Assembly: GCA_015063285.1 (NCBI GenBank)
Contig: SUST01000003.1
Location: 1 to 64,000 of the forward strand
Direction of reading: 5' to 3'
DNA from: Thermoplasmata archaeon
Lineage (GTDB): Archaea; Thermoplasmatota; Thermoplasmata; Methanomassiliicoccales; Methanomethylophilaceae
DNA: 64,000 bases
The notes under the pieces were generated by a model. It was not told where the DNA came from. It made no database searches and was given only the letters and a program-made list of their open reading frames with translations. This document shows positions 30,342 to 38,007 of this stretch, piece after piece (position 1 is the first letter of the stretch; every line of letters starts with the position of its first letter). The position numbers and the translations under genes were made by a program.

Positions 30342-30902
30342 TCAGTGCTTCTTCGTACTCGACAGACGAAGAGATTCTGCCTCATATCCATCCTCTGGCG
30401 GGATGATATGAAGGTGGGTGTAGAAGGGATCCTCGTACTTCGAACCCATGTAACTGTCGATATCGACATTCATGTTGTTCAATACGCGGATGAGGGTGTT
30501 CCTCATGTGAAGAATATCTTCGCGGGGGATTTCACGGAAGTAGCTGTTGTTTAGTTCTGTGATACCATCCATGACCTTCTTTGCCAATGCATGGCCCTCT
30601 TCGGTCAGATAGATGTTGTACTTCTTGCTGCTATCCGACTTACGGTCGTCATAGACGAGTTCCTTCTCTCTGAGTACCTTGATGACACGGTTGGTGTTGG
30701 CGGTATCCAGGTCAAGGAAGCGTGACAGACTTACAAGTGTCTGTCCATCCTTTATTTGGAGAGCTATTAGGTAGATTGCATGAGCGCTGGTCAGGCCGTG
30801 GTCGGAAACGATCTCGGTCATGTTCTTGCGCATCACGAGACTCATTCTGTCGAAGAATGCAGGCAAAAATGAGTTCCAATAGACGTCTTCCCCATCCGAC
30901 AT
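30342..30902 (-). CDS. MarR family transcriptional regulator
   Basis: The 186-residue protein has a winged-helix domain (about 20-135): L-T-S-A-H-A-I-Y-L-I-A-L, then L-V-S-L-S-R-F-L-D-L-D-T-A-N-T-N-R-V-I-K as the recognition helix, then the wing with D-D-R-K-S-D-S-S-K-K-Y-N-I-Y-L-T-E-E-G. The 40 residues after the fold are unusual. A TATTTAAATA element centred near 30929 lies about 27 bp before ATG 30902, so the mRNA is leaderless. Its location directly downstream of mttBC makes it a candidate regulator of the methylamine locus (inference). A weak TCAAA/TTTGA pair near 30941-30960 could be an autoregulatory site. Confidence 0.85.
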   Translation of the reverse strand: MSDGEDVYWNSFLPAFFDRMSLVMRKNMTEIVSDHGLTSAHAIYLIALQIKDGQTLVSLSRFLDLDTANTNRVIKVLREKELVYDDRKSDSSKKYNIYLTEEGHALAKKVMDGITELNNSYFREIPREDILHMRNTLIRVLNNMNVDIDSYMGSKYEDPFYTHLHIIPPEDGYEAESLRLSSTKKH

Positions 30903-31012
30903 TAATGGTGGGATAATTTCATTATTTAAATAGGTACCTTCAAAATCTAAGATATTTGAGGGGGGTATCAAGGGAATCACGACCGGTGTAAAGAAGGAGG
31001 ATATAGGGTCAG

Positions 31013-31033
31013 GCCCTGCGGGCAATGCAGGGC
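31013..31033 (-). terminator. Hairpin downstream of mttC
   Basis: GCCCTGC (31013-31019) and GCAGGGC (31027-31033) form a 7-bp stem with a 7-base loop, about 27 bp after the mttC stop on the minus strand. It probably ends the mttBC transcript before the marR gene. Confidence 0.55.
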
Positions 31034-31059: not shown

Positions 31060-31722
31060 TCACTGATCGCTGAACGCAGCTGTGAACTTGGTCACTGCGT
31101 CGTTCGCGCTCTCTGAGTAGATGTCGGCTCCAATCTCGTCAGCCCACTGCTGGGTGACAGGTGCTCCACCGACGTTGGTCTTGACCTTCCCTTTGAGGCC
31201 CTCTTTCACCATCATCTCTTCCAAGGTCTTCTGTCCGACCATGGTGGAGGTCATGAGTGCAGAGGTTCCGACTGCAACGGCGTTGTAGTCCTTGCATGCC
31301 TGGACGATGGTTCCGAGGGGAACATCCCTTCCAATGTTGTAAACATTGAATCCAGCGACCTTCAGCATGATTGCCACGATATCCTTTCCGATCGAGTGGA
31401 TGTCTCCCTCGATGGAGCACATGACGACGTTTCCGAGTCCCTCTCCGACGGATCCACCGCGTTTCTCGATCTCGGGGACGAGGATGTCCATTCCAGCGGT
31501 CATTGCGTTGGCTGCTGCCATCATGTGGGGGAGGAAGATCTTCTTTGCATCGAAGAGTTTTCCTACCTCTGTGATTCCTGCGCTGAATCCTTCCTGGATG
31601 ACCTTAACGAGGTCAACGTTCTGGTCAGCGACTGCCTCGTTTGCTACAGCCTTTGCGTCAGGTACTTTGTAAGCCATTACTGCTGCTTTTGCTCTTGCGC
31701 ATAATTCTTCTGTTGTTGCCAT
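31060..31722 (-). CDS. mttC: Trimethylamine corrinoid protein
   Basis: The 220-residue protein has an N-terminal helical cap (about 1-90) and a Rossmann-type cobalamin-binding domain with the D-x-H-x-x-G motif (G-D-I-H-S-I-G-K-D, His about residue 109). The later G-x-S/A-A-L-M-T and G-G-A-P-V motifs are also present. It accepts a methyl group from MttB onto Co(I) and passes it to the methylcobamide:CoM methyltransferase. It starts 5 bp after mttB and is co-transcribed with it. Confidence 0.95.
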   Translation of the reverse strand: MATTEELCARAKAAVMAYKVPDAKAVANEAVADQNVDLVKVIQEGFSAGITEVGKLFDAKKIFLPHMMAAANAMTAGMDILVPEIEKRGGSVGEGLGNVVMCSIEGDIHSIGKDIVAIMLKVAGFNVYNIGRDVPLGTIVQACKDYNAVAVGTSALMTSTMVGQKTLEEMMVKEGLKGKVKTNVGGAPVTQQWADEIGADIYSESANDAVTKFTAAFSDQ

Positions 31723-31727
31723 TCAAA

Positions 31728-33227
31728 TCACTCCATTCCTTTCCTCTTTCTGAATGCTGCGTCCGCCTGCTCTACAATGGCTTCCATTGCCTTAAGGCGG
31801 TCTTCGGGAATCGGTTTTACCACGTGGTTGGTCATGATATCGACGACGATCTCATGTGCCCTCTCAACGCAGGACTTCGATCCGTTTGACTGCCACTCGC
31901 CCAGCATGGTCCTGTCGAAGGTTGCGGGGTTGGAGGCGGTCTCGAAGTACTCCATAGTGGATTCGTGTGCAAGGAAGTCGTTTCCTACACCGACTTCCTT
32001 GATTGCGTCAACTGCCAGGGTGAGGTCACTGACAGGTGATCCTTCCATGGCCTTGTAGTTCATGGCCATGATGTCGTTGTCGATTACGACCTGCTCCATG
32101 GAGAAGGTCTGTCCAAGCTCAAGCATACCTGCTCCGTAGATCAGGTTGACACCTGCCATCGCAGGAAGCAGAGAGGTGATGGTCTTCTCGTGGGCTGCCT
32201 GGGAGTCAGGAATCTTGGCGTCGGTCTACATACCGGCTGTGTAGACGGGCAGTCCGTAGTACTGTCCGAGCTTAGCGACAGCTGCGCTGATAACTCCGAG
32301 TTCAGGGGATCCGACAGGTGCGGTTCCGTATCTGAGATCGAAGGTGGTAGTGGAACTTCCGTAGAACACACGTGCTCCGGGGTTCGCGAGCTGGCTCAGG
32401 ACGAGTCCAGAGAGAATCTCGGCGTTGTGGGTAACAAGTGTTCCGGTGATGTGGATAGGTGAGGATCCTCCTGCCATTGCCATCGAGAGGACGTTGACGG
32501 GGATTCCGTACCTTGCTCCCTTGATGATGACCTGAGCTGCGTTGTGACTCAGCTCGAGAGGGGATGTGGGGCAGACCAGCATGGACATGATAGGCCTGTT
32601 GCGTGCCATCTGCTCATCGCCGTTGTAGTAAGTCTTGAGCATCTCCCAGTAGAAGTCCACGTTCTCTGCGACGGGGTCAATGTGGTGGAAGTGCTTGGAT
32701 GTGTTCTTGAGTGAGGTGATCATCTCGTGGACGTCCTCTGCTCCCTTTCCTGCCCAGTCCCTTGCGGAAACAGCCAGTGCGTAGACTGCGATGTTGTCCA
32801 GTGCGTCGACGATCTTTGCGGTGTTTGCGAGATCCTCTTCTGTGGAGTCCCTGGTCTTGTACTTGTTGTCGCCAAGGTAGTCACACATCTGGATTCCGGT
32901 ACCGAAGTTGGTGTAGTACACAGGTCCGTTGTGCATCATGGGGACTGTGTGCTCATCGTCACGTCCGTAGAGGTAGAACATCTTGGGGGCCGTCTGAAGT
33001 GCCTGGTTGATCAGTTTTGAGGGGATCTTAACCATTTTGGTCTCGAAGTTGACCTCACATCCTGCTTCTGCAAAGATCTTGAGTCCCTCTTCGTCTGAAA
33101 CCTGAACACCATAGTTGGCGAGGATATCTCTTGTTGCGTAGTCGATCTCACGGATATCGTCCTCGCTGAAAAGTTCGAGCTTGATACCGCTGTTCTTTAC
33201 CCTACCGGGGTAGTTCCTGCTTACCAT
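31728..33227 (-). CDS. mttB: Trimethylamine methyltransferase with pyrrolysine (in-frame UAG)
   Basis: The gene encodes 499 residues when the amber codon at 32226-32228 is read as pyrrolysine. From ATG 33227 the amber is codon 334, the position I recall for Pyl in Methanosarcina MttB. The frame is open without interruption on both sides: residues 1-333 end in L-P-V-Y-T-A-G-M, and the sequence after the amber continues T-D-A-K-I-P-D-S-Q with high family character. The true stop is TGA. The enzyme demethylates trimethylamine and methylates MttC. GGAGG lies about 9 bp upstream of ATG 33227, whereas the longer frame (33242) would start within it. mttC follows after 5 bp. Confidence 0.95.
32226..32228 (-). 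other. Amber codon decoded as pyrrolysine
   Basis: CTA on the plus strand is UAG in the mttB message. The same frame continues for 166 codons beyond it with MttB-like sequence to a TGA at 31728-31730. It is the only in-frame TAG I found inside a recognised gene of this window. Confidence 0.93.
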
Positions 33228-33246
33228 TTTTATTTCCTCCAATTCC

Positions 33247-33290
33247 GCCGAAGCGGCTTCCTATGGTCTCGGGGAACATGGTTTCCCGAG
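33247..33290 (-). promoter_or_regulatory. mttB 5' leader with two hairpins
   Basis: The leader between the predicted start site (about 33296) and the ATG contains CTCGGGGAAC/GTTTCCCGAG (33268-33277 and 33281-33290, 9 of 10 pairs in the RNA) and GCCG/CGGC (33247-33250 and 33254-33257). The second hairpin ends just upstream of the GGAGG ribosome binding site. These may affect translation or mRNA stability. Confidence 0.45.
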
Positions 33291-33316
33291 TCATGATATT
33301 GAGAACTCATCAAAAG

Positions 33317-33325
33317 TATATAAAA
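33317..33325 (-). promoter_or_regulatory. mttB TATA box
   Basis: TTTTATATA on the minus strand is close to the archaeal consensus and predicts transcription start near 33296, giving a leader of about 70 nt. The GTCATCAT box at 33336-33343 lies 10 bp upstream of it. Confidence 0.6.
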
Positions 33326-33335
33326 TCATTGAGTT

Positions 33336-33372
33336 GTCATCATTATAATTGATAATTGCAATATTTATAATG
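33336..33372 (+). promoter_or_regulatory. Shared control region: GTCATCAT box, inverted repeat and chlI TATA
   Basis: GTCATCAT (33336-33343) is followed after 15 bp by CAATATTTATA (33359-33369), the probable TATA element of chlI. An inverted repeat CATTATAA (33341-33348) and TTATAATG (33365-33372) overlaps both. The box and the 11-bp TATA segment recur with a 14-bp spacer in front of the permease at 36420-36452. This suggests one regulator for both promoters and, by position, for mttBC. Confidence 0.5.
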
Positions 33373-33469
33373 ATTAATTCAACGAATAAAATTGACCGCA
33401 ACAATAAAAATATGACTTTTGCAATTATGGATGTATCGTCCGAAAAGGATAATAACGATAGGTGAGCCG

Positions 33470-34513
33470 ATGCCGGAAAAAGAGAAGAATCTTCAATTCC
33501 CGTTCGTCCGCATTGTCGGGCAGGAAGAGATGAAACGTGCCTTATTACTAAATATAATAGATCCTGGGATAGGAGGGGTTCTTCTCAGAGGCGAGAAAGG
33601 TACGGCGAAATCCACCACTGTGCGCTCACTTGCACAGATTCTGCCTCAAGTACGTTGTATCGCCGGATGTCAATTCCATTGCAATCCTGATATGCCCAGA
33701 TATCTGTGTGAGGATTGTAAAAGGAAAATGGAATCGGGTCAATTCGAGGAAACGATGCGTGATATGAAGGTTGTGGAACTGCCACTCAATGCGACCGAGG
33801 ATCGTATTTCTGGAAGTCTTGATGTTGAGCATGTCCTTCGTACCGGCGAGAGGAAATACGAAGGAGGAGTTCTTGCACAGGCGAACGGAAACCTCCTCTA
33901 CGTGGATGAGGTCAATCTTTTGGACGATCACATAGTCGATCTTCTACTTGACTCTGCGGCTATGGGAAGGAACTTCGTTGAAAGGGAAGGCATCTCATTC
34001 TCACATCCTGCAAAGTTCGTACTGATCGGTTCGATGAATCCGGAGGAAGGAACGTTACGTCCTCAGCTCATGGACCGTTTCGGAATGTGCGTAGACATAA
34101 AGACGGAACGCGATCCAGATATTAGGGTCGAGGTAATTAAGAGAAGATTGGCCTTTGATGCCGATCCTGAAGGTTTCACGGCCGAATGTCAGGCTGATAT
34201 CGACGCTTTGCGTGAGAAGATAATCGATGCCAAGCAACGTATCGATCACATTGAAGTTCCTGACAGGATGCTTACAGCGATAGCGATGGTCTCGATTCAT
34301 TTTGGAATGGAGGGGCACCGCGCAGACCTCGCAATGATACGTGCAGCGAAAGCCAATGCTGCATTGGAAGGAAGAGATAAGATTGATTTCAAGGACATTT
34401 CCTCTACAGCATCCCTGATCCTTCGTCACCGTATGAAATCAGGTCCGTTTGAGGAAGCGGAATTCCGCCAAGCTGAGTTAGACAGTGTGCTAAGGGGGTA
34501 TCTGGGATCCTGA
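33470..34513 (+). CDS. ChlI/BchI-type Mg-chelatase-like AAA+ ATPase
   Basis: The 347-residue AAA+ protein has Walker A G-E-K-G-T-A-K-S-T at about residue 41 and the chelatase-hallmark Walker B region G-N-L-L-Y-V-D-E-V-N-L-L-D-D-H near 140. It also has the chelatase insertion with four cysteines (C-I-A-G-C-Q-F-H-C ... C-E-D-C, about 63-83). ChlI drives metal insertion into tetrapyrroles together with ChlD and a large ChlH/CobN subunit, which is not seen here. ATG 33470 has AGGTGA at 4 bp spacing. It diverges from mttB and overlaps functionally with chlD downstream. A role in corrinoid or F430-related metal handling is inference. Confidence 0.82.
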   Translation: MPEKEKNLQFPFVRIVGQEEMKRALLLNIIDPGIGGVLLRGEKGTAKSTTVRSLAQILPQVRCIAGCQFHCNPDMPRYLCEDCKRKMESGQFEETMRDMKVVELPLNATEDRISGSLDVEHVLRTGERKYEGGVLAQANGNLLYVDEVNLLDDHIVDLLLDSAAMGRNFVEREGISFSHPAKFVLIGSMNPEEGTLRPQLMDRFGMCVDIKTERDPDIRVEVIKRRLAFDADPEGFTAECQADIDALREKIIDAKQRIDHIEVPDRMLTAIAMVSIHFGMEGHRADLAMIRAAKANAALEGRDKIDFKDISSTASLILRHRMKSGPFEEAEFRQAELDSVLRGYLGS

Positions 34514-34527
34514 AGCTGGACCAGTTC

Positions 34528-36354
34528 GTGGGGATGGACGATGCCCTGCGGGCTCTTTCTTGTTTGATGGTCGATCCTGATCTTCACGGCCTACTGATAA
34601 AAGGTCCCGCGGGATCAGGAAAATCGGCACTCATACATTCATTCTCCGCAGCATACACCGGCAGGAGGGCCAGGATAGTGCCTCAGAACATAACTGATGA
34701 GCAACTGTTCGGAAGCATCGATTTGGAATTGGTTCTGTCTACAGGAGAAGTACAATTTGAACCTGGTATACTGGGGAAAGAGAAAGACATAGTTCTGGTT
34801 GACGACATCAACCTTCTGCCTAAGAATCTGTCATTAGCTATGATGGATTCCGTACATAAAGGCCAGATACATATTGAAAGAGAGGGGATATCAAAGACCT
34901 ATCCATGTTCAGCCAGTATAGTCGCCACGGCGAATGACAGAGAGCAACCTTTGTCGTCGGCATTGAATGATCTGTTTGACATGTGCGTGATAATAAGCAG
35001 AGACCCTAGCTGTGAGAAGAGGGTATCAGTAATGAAAGGTGTCATCTCCGAGACAGATCAGGAGCTTGATGTCGATACAGAACTCTGCAGCCGTATAGGT
35101 CGGGCGAGGGAACAGATCAGCAAAATTTCGATTCCAGATCATATTCTGGAAGCCATAGTAGAGGCATGTGACGTATATGGCGTTCAGGGAATGCGTGGAA
35201 GTCTCTCGGCCGCGATGGTCTGCAGAGCTTCAGCCGCTTTAGAAGGGCGCACAGAAATAAGCGAAGATGATCTGGCGTTTGCCTTGAGGGTCTGCATCAT
35301 CCATCGTCGCACCCATCTCAGGAAGCAGACCAAAGAAGTCGAGGACAAGGTCTTGTTCTTCGGCGACTCCCACATGAAGAGGTTCATTCATGATGAACGT
35401 AAGGAGTTACTGAAAAAAGCGGAAGAGAGTGAAGTAGAATCTAAGGATTCAGTTCAAACAGCCTTTGTGGATAAACCGAGCAGCAAGAATGATGATGGCA
35501 GCGGAACGGAACAGGAAGCAGCCGTATTGGATATGGATAAACTATTCGATACCATAGATCTCCTGGATGACAGTCGCAAGAAAAGAGGGCCTACAGATAG
35601 CCATCTCATGCGTCGTTTCATCAAAGATGCAGGTAAGGATGGCAGATATGTATCATCCAGTCCTGCAGATGGATCGACCTCGGATCTAGCAGTGGATGCT
35701 ACTGTTCGCTATGCCGCCCCCTATCAACAGTACCGCAGGAAGAGTACGGGAAGGGAGGGCGTGATAATAATGCCGTCTGACCTGAGGAAGAAGGTCAGGG
35801 AGAAGCACACGTCTTGTTTATTCTTCTTCATGGTTGACAACAGCGGTTCTCTGGTCCTGCGCGCTCGCATGAGGGCCGTAAAGGCTGCAATAATGTCCAT
35901 GCTGGCGGATCACTATGTCCGCAGCGATAGCGTTGCCGTGATGACATTCAATGAGGAATTCATAGGAATGCTTCTGCCCCCGACACGTTCAGTGGGCGGT
36001 GTCAAGAAGATCATCGATGACATACCTACGGGGAAAAAGACGCCTTTGAGCGAAGCTCTGAGCTTTATGCACCAATATGTCGGACAGTATCTTAGGAAGA
36101 ATCCTTCCAACATGGCCTTTGTTATAATCATGACTGATGCTGTGGCAAACATCGCTATGACTGAGGGCAAGGATCCGTTCGAAGAAGCGCTGGAGATCGC
36201 AACGCACGTCCGTTTGGACAGGATGGAAATGGTCTTAGTCGATACCAAAGTATCCACCGAGCCCAACGAGAAAGCTATAAGATTGTCGTACGCACTAGAG
36301 GCGCCGTACTACAAGATTGAGGATCTGAGATCGTCCGAGAACATTCTTCACTGA
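34528..36354 (+). CDS. ChlD/BchD-type AAA+ and VWA domain protein
   Basis: The 608-residue protein has an N-terminal AAA+ domain with intact Walker A G-P-A-G-S-G-K-S (26-33) and Walker B I-V-L-V-D-D-I-N-L-L (about 88-97). A charged linker (about 285-410) follows, then a C-terminal VWA domain with the MIDAS D-N-S-G-S near 437 and T-D-A near 537. This is the ChlD layout. In photosynthetic ChlD the ATP site is usually degenerate, but here it looks complete. The GTG start lies 14 bp after chlI; family alignment suggests the true start could be a few codons earlier. The partner large chelatase subunit is absent, so a MoxR/VWA-like remodelling role is an alternative. Confidence 0.78.
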   Translation: MGMDDALRALSCLMVDPDLHGLLIKGPAGSGKSALIHSFSAAYTGRRARIVPQNITDEQLFGSIDLELVLSTGEVQFEPGILGKEKDIVLVDDINLLPKNLSLAMMDSVHKGQIHIEREGISKTYPCSASIVATANDREQPLSSALNDLFDMCVIISRDPSCEKRVSVMKGVISETDQELDVDTELCSRIGRAREQISKISIPDHILEAIVEACDVYGVQGMRGSLSAAMVCRASAALEGRTEISEDDLAFALRVCIIHRRTHLRKQTKEVEDKVLFFGDSHMKRFIHDERKELLKKAEESEVESKDSVQTAFVDKPSSKNDDGSGTEQEAAVLDMDKLFDTIDLLDDSRKKRGPTDSHLMRRFIKDAGKDGRYVSSSPADGSTSDLAVDATVRYAAPYQQYRRKSTGREGVIIMPSDLRKKVREKHTSCLFFFMVDNSGSLVLRARMRAVKAAIMSMLADHYVRSDSVAVMTFNEEFIGMLLPPTRSVGGVKKIIDDIPTGKKTPLSEALSFMHQYVGQYLRKNPSNMAFVIIMTDAVANIAMTEGKDPFEEALEIATHVRLDRMEMVLVDTKVSTEPNEKAIRLSYALEAPYYKIEDLRSSENILH

Positions 36355-36516: not shown

Positions 36517-38007
36517 ATGAGTGAAACAGAGAGTGTACCTCAGGAAGGTGCCGGACTCGTCCGGTCCCTTACCTGGAAGCAGGGACTCATAGTTGCTATG
36601 GGCGTCCCTATCCTTATCATCCCCTCGGTAGCAGATGTTTCCGGCCCGATGTGGGCTTTCAGCATAATTATCTGGGTTCTTTCGGTCATATCCGGATTCT
36701 TCATCAACCTGCCAATCGGTGAGTTGTGTGCAACATTCGGTGTCGCCGGAATTGGAGGTTCCATCCAATACGTGTTCGAGGATGATGAGAAATATAAGAA
36801 CAAAAGAATCAACACAGGAAGACTCATAGGTGCGATCGGTGCCTGGAGTTATTTCGTGGCTTGGGTGACCGTGATCCCCATCTTCACCATAATGGTAGCA
36901 TATTATCTCATGGAGGCCCTTGATCTCAGCGGACTCGACCCCATGATGGAGACCCTCCTGTATGTTGGAATTGGAGTTGTTGTTTATGCATACTCTATCG
37001 GAACCAGCCTCAAAGGATTGGAAGGCGGTGCAAAATTCCAACTCATCCTTACTCTTCTTACTATCATCCCTCTTGTCGTCATCGTTCTTGCCCCTATGCT
37101 CATGGGCTACTTCGATCTCGACACCATCATCAACGATATCGAACCCAAGAAGTGGTTGTGGACCGGAGAGGACTGGGCATGGAACGCTGACGGATTCCTG
37201 CTTGTCCTCGCTCTTCTCACGATCGCTCAGTGGAGTGCAGTCGGTTGGGAGACCGCAGCGACATATGGTGCTGAATACAAGGATCCTTCAAAGGATGTTC
37301 CCAAGGCGCTGATCATGTGCGGTCTGGCCTGTCTCGCCCTCTACTTCTTCGTATCATTTGCAGTTTACGGAACACTTGGGCACGATGCGATCGATGCAGC
37401 AGGTGCCGCCGCCCTTGTCCCCATAGCTAACATGTGCTTCGGAGACACTGTCGGGCTCATCGCGACATTCCTTCTCATGATCGGAATGATCGTCGTCGTT
37501 CAGACATCCATGCAGGGATGCTCCAGGACACTTCAGGTCATGGCAACTAACGGACACATGCCCATGTTCCTCTCGAAGACCAACAAGTATGGTGTGCCTG
37601 TCAACGCTCTGCTCTTCCAGGCCGCGATCGGATTCCTTGTTATCATCGCAGGTATTACCGCTAGTCAGACACTGGCCGTGTCCTGCCCCGGATACGTAAT
37701 AGCTCACGGACTCTGTCAGCTCGCATTCATCAAATCGCGCAGGGACCCCCGCTTCAAAGATGTTGAAAGAGTGTACAAGTGCCCCCGTGGATTCCTTGGA
37801 GTATCCATCGGAGTTGTCATCTTGGAATTCTGTATATTCCTGCCAGCACTGCTATGGTACCTCTATGTCAACCCGGATATGGGAATCGGTTACAGCATCG
37901 CAGCTATCGCCATCCCCATCATATACATCCCGATTTGGTATGTGTTGCAGAAGTGGAACCACACTCACCACCCAGAGATCCCCAACGGTCTCAACTGGAA
38001 CGAGTGA
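36517..38007 (+). CDS. APC superfamily amino acid/amine permease
   Basis: The 496-residue integral membrane protein has about 12 hydrophobic segments and the APC-type first helix with G-V-P-I-L-I-I-P-S-V-A-D-V-S-G-P. A central S-A-V-G-W-E-T-A-A-T-Y-G-A-E motif resembles the glutamate/GABA transporter branch. The substrate cannot be read directly. Its location after mttBC/chlID and its near-copy of the chlI promoter support uptake of a methylated amine or related nitrogen compound (inference). A strong hairpin follows the stop. Confidence 0.85.
   Translation: MSETESVPQEGAGLVRSLTWKQGLIVAMGVPILIIPSVADVSGPMWAFSIIIWVLSVISGFFINLPIGELCATFGVAGIGGSIQYVFEDDEKYKNKRINTGRLIGAIGAWSYFVAWVTVIPIFTIMVAYYLMEALDLSGLDPMMETLLYVGIGVVVYAYSIGTSLKGLEGGAKFQLILTLLTIIPLVVIVLAPMLMGYFDLDTIINDIEPKKWLWTGEDWAWNADGFLLVLALLTIAQWSAVGWETAATYGAEYKDPSKDVPKALIMCGLACLALYFFVSFAVYGTLGHDAIDAAGAAALVPIANMCFGDTVGLIATFLLMIGMIVVVQTSMQGCSRTLQVMATNGHMPMFLSKTNKYGVPVNALLFQAAIGFLVIIAGITASQTLAVSCPGYVIAHGLCQLAFIKSRRDPRFKDVERVYKCPRGFLGVSIGVVILEFCIFLPALLWYLYVNPDMGIGYSIAAIAIPIIYIPIWYVLQKWNHTHHPEIPNGLNWNE

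Follow-up and report, generated by a model that had tools for sequence, protein, structure and literature searches.

The genes chlI and chlD examined here lie in a stretch of 64,000 nucleotides (the window) at the start of contig SUST01000003.1 of a Thermoplasmata archaeon from the family Methanomethylophilaceae (assembly GCA_015063285.1), where they are divergent from mttBC, the genes for a trimethylamine methyltransferase and its corrinoid protein. They belong to a distinct lineage of AAA+/VWA motors, here called clade M. We propose that clade M is a cobaltochelatase-type motor that became detached from the chelatase subunit CobN in Methanomethylophilaceae, and that it may now serve the pyrrolysine-dependent methylamine:corrinoid methyltransferase machinery, a reading to which we assign a probability of about 0.55. 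It would mean that an entire motor lineage is bound to a single metabolic system within one family of methanogens of the gut and rumen, and the function of the motor would therefore become testable.

Profile searches matched ChlI to the chelatase models TIGR02442 (E 1e-142) and TIGR02030 (E 3e-122), a PDB comparison matched it to the ChlI structure 6l8d (E 5e-99), and the protein contains the Walker A motif GEKGTAKST, a Walker B motif and a four-Cys motif. ChlD matched AAA, lid and VWA_2 domain models, TIGR02442 (1e-106), TIGR02031 (6e-98) and the VWA domain of BchD (2x31), and its metal ion-dependent adhesion site (MIDAS) is complete (D437, S439, S441, T505, D537). In the AlphaFold model of ChlD, a linker of low prediction quality connects an AAA+ domain to a VWA-like domain at the C terminus; the model is mediocre (predicted local distance difference test score 72, predicted template modelling score 0.46), and its use was limited to confirming the domain layout. 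The solved structures nearest to it in a Foldseek search are BchI/ChlI. Assignment of the AAA+ protein to the MoxR class fails, as the best matches are chelatase models and the bpMoxR match on ChlD falls below the cut-off. Together with the pyrrolysine insertion element PYLIS_3 in mttB, the profile and PDB matches confirm what the initial annotation had read from the letters alone, a ChlI/ChlD-type AAA+/VWA pair divergent from mttBC; the span 33228-36354 given there does contain a real pair, while its left edge falls inside mttB. Wherever synonymous sites were unsaturated, the ratio of nonsynonymous to synonymous substitution rates of chlI and chlD was at most 0.17 among close orthologues, indicating strong purifying selection, and both genes are therefore maintained.

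In a maximum-likelihood tree of 67 ChlD rows, a branch with support 100/99 separates the side that includes the window (23 rows, none near CobN) from the remaining 44 rows, of which 41 are near CobN. A tree of 116 ChlD rows rooted on Chloroflexi places clade M (37 rows, local support 1.0) inside the CobN-linked ChlD, so that CobN linkage is likely to be the ancestral state, and the identical clade was recovered in a tree of 101 ChlI (35/35, support 0.89). CobN lies within 9 kb of ChlD in none of the 37 clade M rows versus 68 of the other 79, and methylamine or RamA genes lie within that distance in 16/37 versus 2/79 (Fisher p 7e-8, uncorrected for relatedness), where chance would predict about 3-9%, the share of a genome lying that close to methylamine genes. 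These counts include orthologues whose context is shared by descent, so that rows overstate independence; distinct arrangements are a fairer measure.

Clade M is also distinguished by the ChlD sequence itself. In an alignment of 37 M and 79 non-M rows, the five MIDAS ligands were conserved in 100% of clade M. By contrast, G443, R475, A479, P500 and G503, each kept in 75-79 of the 79 non-M ChlD (from archaea, Firmicutes and Chloroflexi), are missing from the majority of M rows, with only a partial loss of R475 and P500; Rhodobacter BchD retains four of the five (R, A, P, G). G443 and P500/G503 flank MIDAS ligands in the sequence. The proline-rich acidic linker is lost in clade M as well, with 4.5% proline versus 16% elsewhere. 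The integrin/VWA domain of ChlD governs ChlH binding in magnesium chelatase (PMC6604950), and the pattern seen here, an intact MIDAS with an altered docking surface, is, as far as sequence can indicate, the one to be expected from a switch of client.

The surroundings of ChlI-ChlD pairs were surveyed in 60 related genomes, most of them metagenome-assembled, and at 80 named loci, and methylamine genes, RamA and CobN were mapped around the pairs found. The pair recurs beside methylamine, RamA or pyrrolysine genes across these relatives in several arrangements. The layout of the window, with chlI-chlD divergent from mttBC and accompanied by a MarR-like gene, was found in G012, G024 and, from another genus, G032, and a divergent mttB was likewise found on short contigs of G011 and G010. 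A second type of pair, in about nine genomes, is convergent to mttP-mttC-mttB-mtbB(-mtbC), often with RamA. One locus has mtbB-APC-chlI-chlD-MarR on a single strand (L172), another has pylS-pylB-pylC-pylD-ramA-chlI-chlD followed by a CCG/4Fe-4S protein, all in the same orientation and no more than about 50 bases apart (L159), a third has pylC-pylD-ramA a few genes upstream of the pair (L167), and in L051 the pair adjoins RamA, a gene that neighbours clade M pairs in several genomes. The CCG/4Fe-4S protein, which is HdrB/C-like, follows chlD in both pyl-ramA-chlID loci (L159 8588-9565, immediately; L167 13244-14227) and is possibly an electron carrier for RamA. Apparent ChlI-ChlD fusions in L167 and L161 were rejected, the fused frames being products of masked N and frame choice. 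G012 holds both types of M pair, each beside its own mttBC copy (contigs C16 and C51), and the MttB linked to x-type and to y-type M pairs fall apart in the MttB tree.

Several observations weigh against the reading proposed here. That the client lies within the methyltransferase system is something we infer. The x-type pair keeps its place in G006, G018 and G030 though mttBC is missing from the locus, and the M pairs of termite-gut origin (12 rows) adjoin neither methylamine nor CobN genes. Clusters of mttB and pyl genes without any ChlID occur in G013, G046 and G059, so the pair is accessory and inessential to the chemistry, and recombinant M. barkeri MttB and MttC work in vitro with RamA alone (PMC9842639), which again fits an accessory rather than a catalytic role. 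The local persistence of the pair without mttBC and the context of the termite-gut pairs would suit a CobN-free AAA+/VWA chaperone with a family-wide job outside methylamine catabolism, acting for example on a membrane or Fe-S protein or in a general step of corrinoid or cobalt trafficking, whose genes drifted beside methylamine genes in some lineages. Such a job would also account for the APC permease, which accompanies the pair almost as regularly as mttBC does, and for a small conserved membrane protein of unknown family encoded directly downstream of the termite-gut pairs (L174 4194-4778 and five other loci). We consider it unlikely, since each of several different arrangements includes methylamine, RamA or pyl genes, and family members that lack pylS or mtmB (G031, G034, G035) also lack an M pair. 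Conversely, mtmB was found in 17 of 18 M carriers and the exception, G062, has pylS; thus an equal occurrence of the pair in genomes lacking methylamine genes, which the initial annotation had named as fatal to its idea, is not what was observed.

The same annotation had noted that no ChlH/CobN is nearby. This holds for the window, and the genome does contain two CobN genes (PF02514) on other contigs, one preceded immediately by a ChlI and ChlD of its own (C2) and one standing alone, without a ChlI-ChlD pair (C4). A tie to a distant cobaltochelatase therefore had to be tested across genomes. CobN is missing from 10 of the 18 M-carrying genomes tested (G022, G033, G060-G063, G066, G070, G071, G074), so the second outcome that the annotation had named as fatal, a constant tie to a distant cobaltochelatase, does not hold either; because most genomes are metagenome-assembled, a missing CobN may be a gap, which tempers the argument, and one of the ten, G033, is a complete single-contig genome. 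All ChlD retrieved from these ten genomes and classified belong to clade M. Of the eight M genomes that contain CobN, a CobN-type pair was classified in five, and the remaining three contain further ChlD copies, split or partial, that were left out of the tree. The M pair could still be an ordinary extra motor for the lone CobN on C4, placed beside mttBC since growth on methylamines needs much corrinoid: besides the M pair, this genome has a single ChlI-ChlD pair for its two CobN, and CobN copies exceed pairs in many relatives. This is improbable, as M pairs never adjoin CobN, persist as the only pairs in the ten genomes without it, and have lost the residues and the linker common to CobN-linked ChlD. 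Chance adjacency without functional meaning is very improbable: two divergent genes in any single genome mean little and much of the common context is inherited, but the pair adjoins methylamine or RamA genes in 16/37 rows versus 2/79, does so in several distinct arrangements, and would be expected there by chance in only about 3-9%.

How might the motor of clade M act on a methyltransferase system? The ChlI ring would hydrolyse ATP and move ChlD, whose VWA/MIDAS domain would dock on the client, be it the corrinoid protein, the Pyl methyltransferase or RamA. The docked motor would then help to mature or reactivate this client alongside RamA, not in its place, an accessory, non-catalytic job such as loading, exchanging or rescuing the corrinoid. 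By analogy, NorQD and CbbQO may serve as models for such action; in NorQD, the AAA+ ring moves a MIDAS-bearing VWA partner and thereby opens the enzyme for metal insertion (PMC13036017). The comparison across genomes supports two parts of the initial idea, a functional connection with methylamine metabolism and independence from a CobN/ChlH subunit. Among the roles first suggested for the pair, insertion of metal into a tetrapyrrole used by MttC is unlikely because the porphyrin-binding H/N subunit is missing, and replacement of RamA was rejected because RamA is present in all 60 relatives, leaving the pair as a supplement to RamA at most. Our best guess is the remaining suggestion, remodelling or reactivation of corrinoid or methyltransferase proteins. 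It is tempting, and more tentative, to go further and see in clade M ChlI-ChlD an ATP-driven machine dedicated to maturing or reactivating complexes of pyrrolysine methyltransferase and corrinoid protein, and to suppose that the cobaltochelatase motor from which it evolved gave up the tetrapyrrole-binding subunit and took a corrinoid enzyme as its client instead. A published link between these ChlI-ChlD and methylamine genes was not found in the literature searched, which left most subscription papers outside. If this more tentative reading is true, it adds a so far undescribed accessory step to methylamine methanogenesis. A motor serving corrinoid methyltransferases would be an unrecognised ATP-dependent helper in this pathway, relevant to gut trimethylamine and rumen methane, and would provide an example of a metal-insertion motor changing clients through an altered MIDAS face.

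Table 1. Coordinates of the features at the clade M locus of the window.
Feature	Position	Strand	Evidence
chlI (clade M), AAA+ motor subunit, 347 aa	33470..34513	+	TIGR02442/TIGR02030, PDB ChlI, ChlI tree
chlD (clade M), AAA+ domain, non-proline-rich linker and VWA domain	34528..36354	+	profiles, AlphaFold, Foldseek
mttB, trimethylamine methyltransferase, one in-frame TAG (pyrrolysine)	31728..33242	-	TIGR02369, 708 bits
PYLIS_3 element, pyrrolysine insertion sequence of mttB	32129..32228	-	Rfam RF02510, 88.7 bits
mttC, corrinoid protein	31060..31722	-	TIGR02370, B12-binding domains
Divergent intergenic region between mttB and chlI	33243..33469	.	alignment of orthologous loci
MarR-like regulator	30342..31025	-	weak MarR_2 match; synteny
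APC-family permease, distant from the trimethylamine N-oxide permease model	36517..38007	+	profile matches; synteny

The ATG that starts chlI at 33470 has AGGTGA directly 5' of it. The start of chlD, which begins 14 bases past chlI, is ambiguous (GTG 34528 or ATG 34534), and its frame stays open further 5'. The gap of about 230 bases between chlI and mttB contains an AT-rich block, TATATAAA..CATTGAG, that is partly conserved across orthologous loci and might be a shared operator, but is absent from the MarR-chlI gap of locus L154. No cobalamin riboswitch or other RNA was detected at the divergent promoter, PYLIS_3 being the sole RNA match in the window. The MarR-like gene still adjoins the pair where mttBC is gone (G018, G030), and the APC-family permease gene repeatedly adjoins clade M pairs. 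Synonymous divergence (dS) of mttC is about 0.5 between genomes whose adjoining chlI is saturated (dS >1.8 or not computable), reflecting either strong codon bias due to high expression or a recent transfer of mttBC.

CobN itself has strikingly multiplied in the genus (G001, G005, G010 and others): a genome of 1.5-1.9 Mb can contain as many as 12 PF02514 matches, counting fragments, and FecCD-type ABC transporters and binding proteins are frequent neighbours. Instead of serving B12 synthesis, these copies might act as HmuS-like tetrapyrrole de-chelatases (PMC12583661). Two in-frame TAG codons occur in the full-length CobN on C4 of the window genome (L009 9851-13594), two more in the ChlD that is linked to CobN on C2, within its acidic linker (L010 9557-11437), and one or two in CobN matches of G005, G008, G010, G018, G030, G064, G068 and G075; pyrrolysine read-through is possible, and the codons in the ChlD linker might alternatively yield a short product with the AAA domain only. 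Close to the ChlI-ChlD-CobN cluster, L010 309-1583 encodes a nitrogenase component 1-like protein (PF00148), and NflD-like genes recur by the CobN clusters of other genomes (L058, L119, L122, L133).

Among known systems, the clade M pair most resembles the motors of CobN-type cobaltochelatase and ChlIDH magnesium chelatase (TIGR02442, TIGR02030, TIGR02031), with which it shares domain layout, Walker motifs, MIDAS ligands and the ChlI-ChlD gene order; judged by sequence, it is clearly homologous to CobN-linked chelatase motors and derived from them. Unlike the CobN-ChlI-ChlD cobaltochelatase, it has no H/N subunit nearby, and in many carrier genomes none at all, and its ChlD, unlike the CobN-linked ones, has lost both the acidic, proline-rich linker and the nearly invariant residues of the VWA domain. 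ChlI/ChlD pairs in genomes without ChlH/CobN have been described, their function being stated as unclear (PMC9227772); the part of that report available to us mentions no methylamine or pyrrolysine link for these motor-only pairs, in which they differ from clade M. The combination of an AAA+ ring and a VWA partner is shared with NorQD, CbbQO and RavA-ViaA, which perform enzyme remodelling or metal insertion without a chelatase subunit (PMC13036017, PMC9976466, PMC4660213). Those systems are MoxR-class, whereas the clade M pair is chelatase-class by its sequence and its ChlD has an AAA+ domain of its own. Finally, RamA, the RACE-type corrinoid reductive activase (TIGR04270), provides an ATP-dependent service to methylamine corrinoid proteins, and the clade M pair is proposed to do likewise; RamA is an ASKHA ATPase with Fe-S clusters and an unrelated fold, whereas the clade M pair is an AAA+/VWA motor encoded separately from it.
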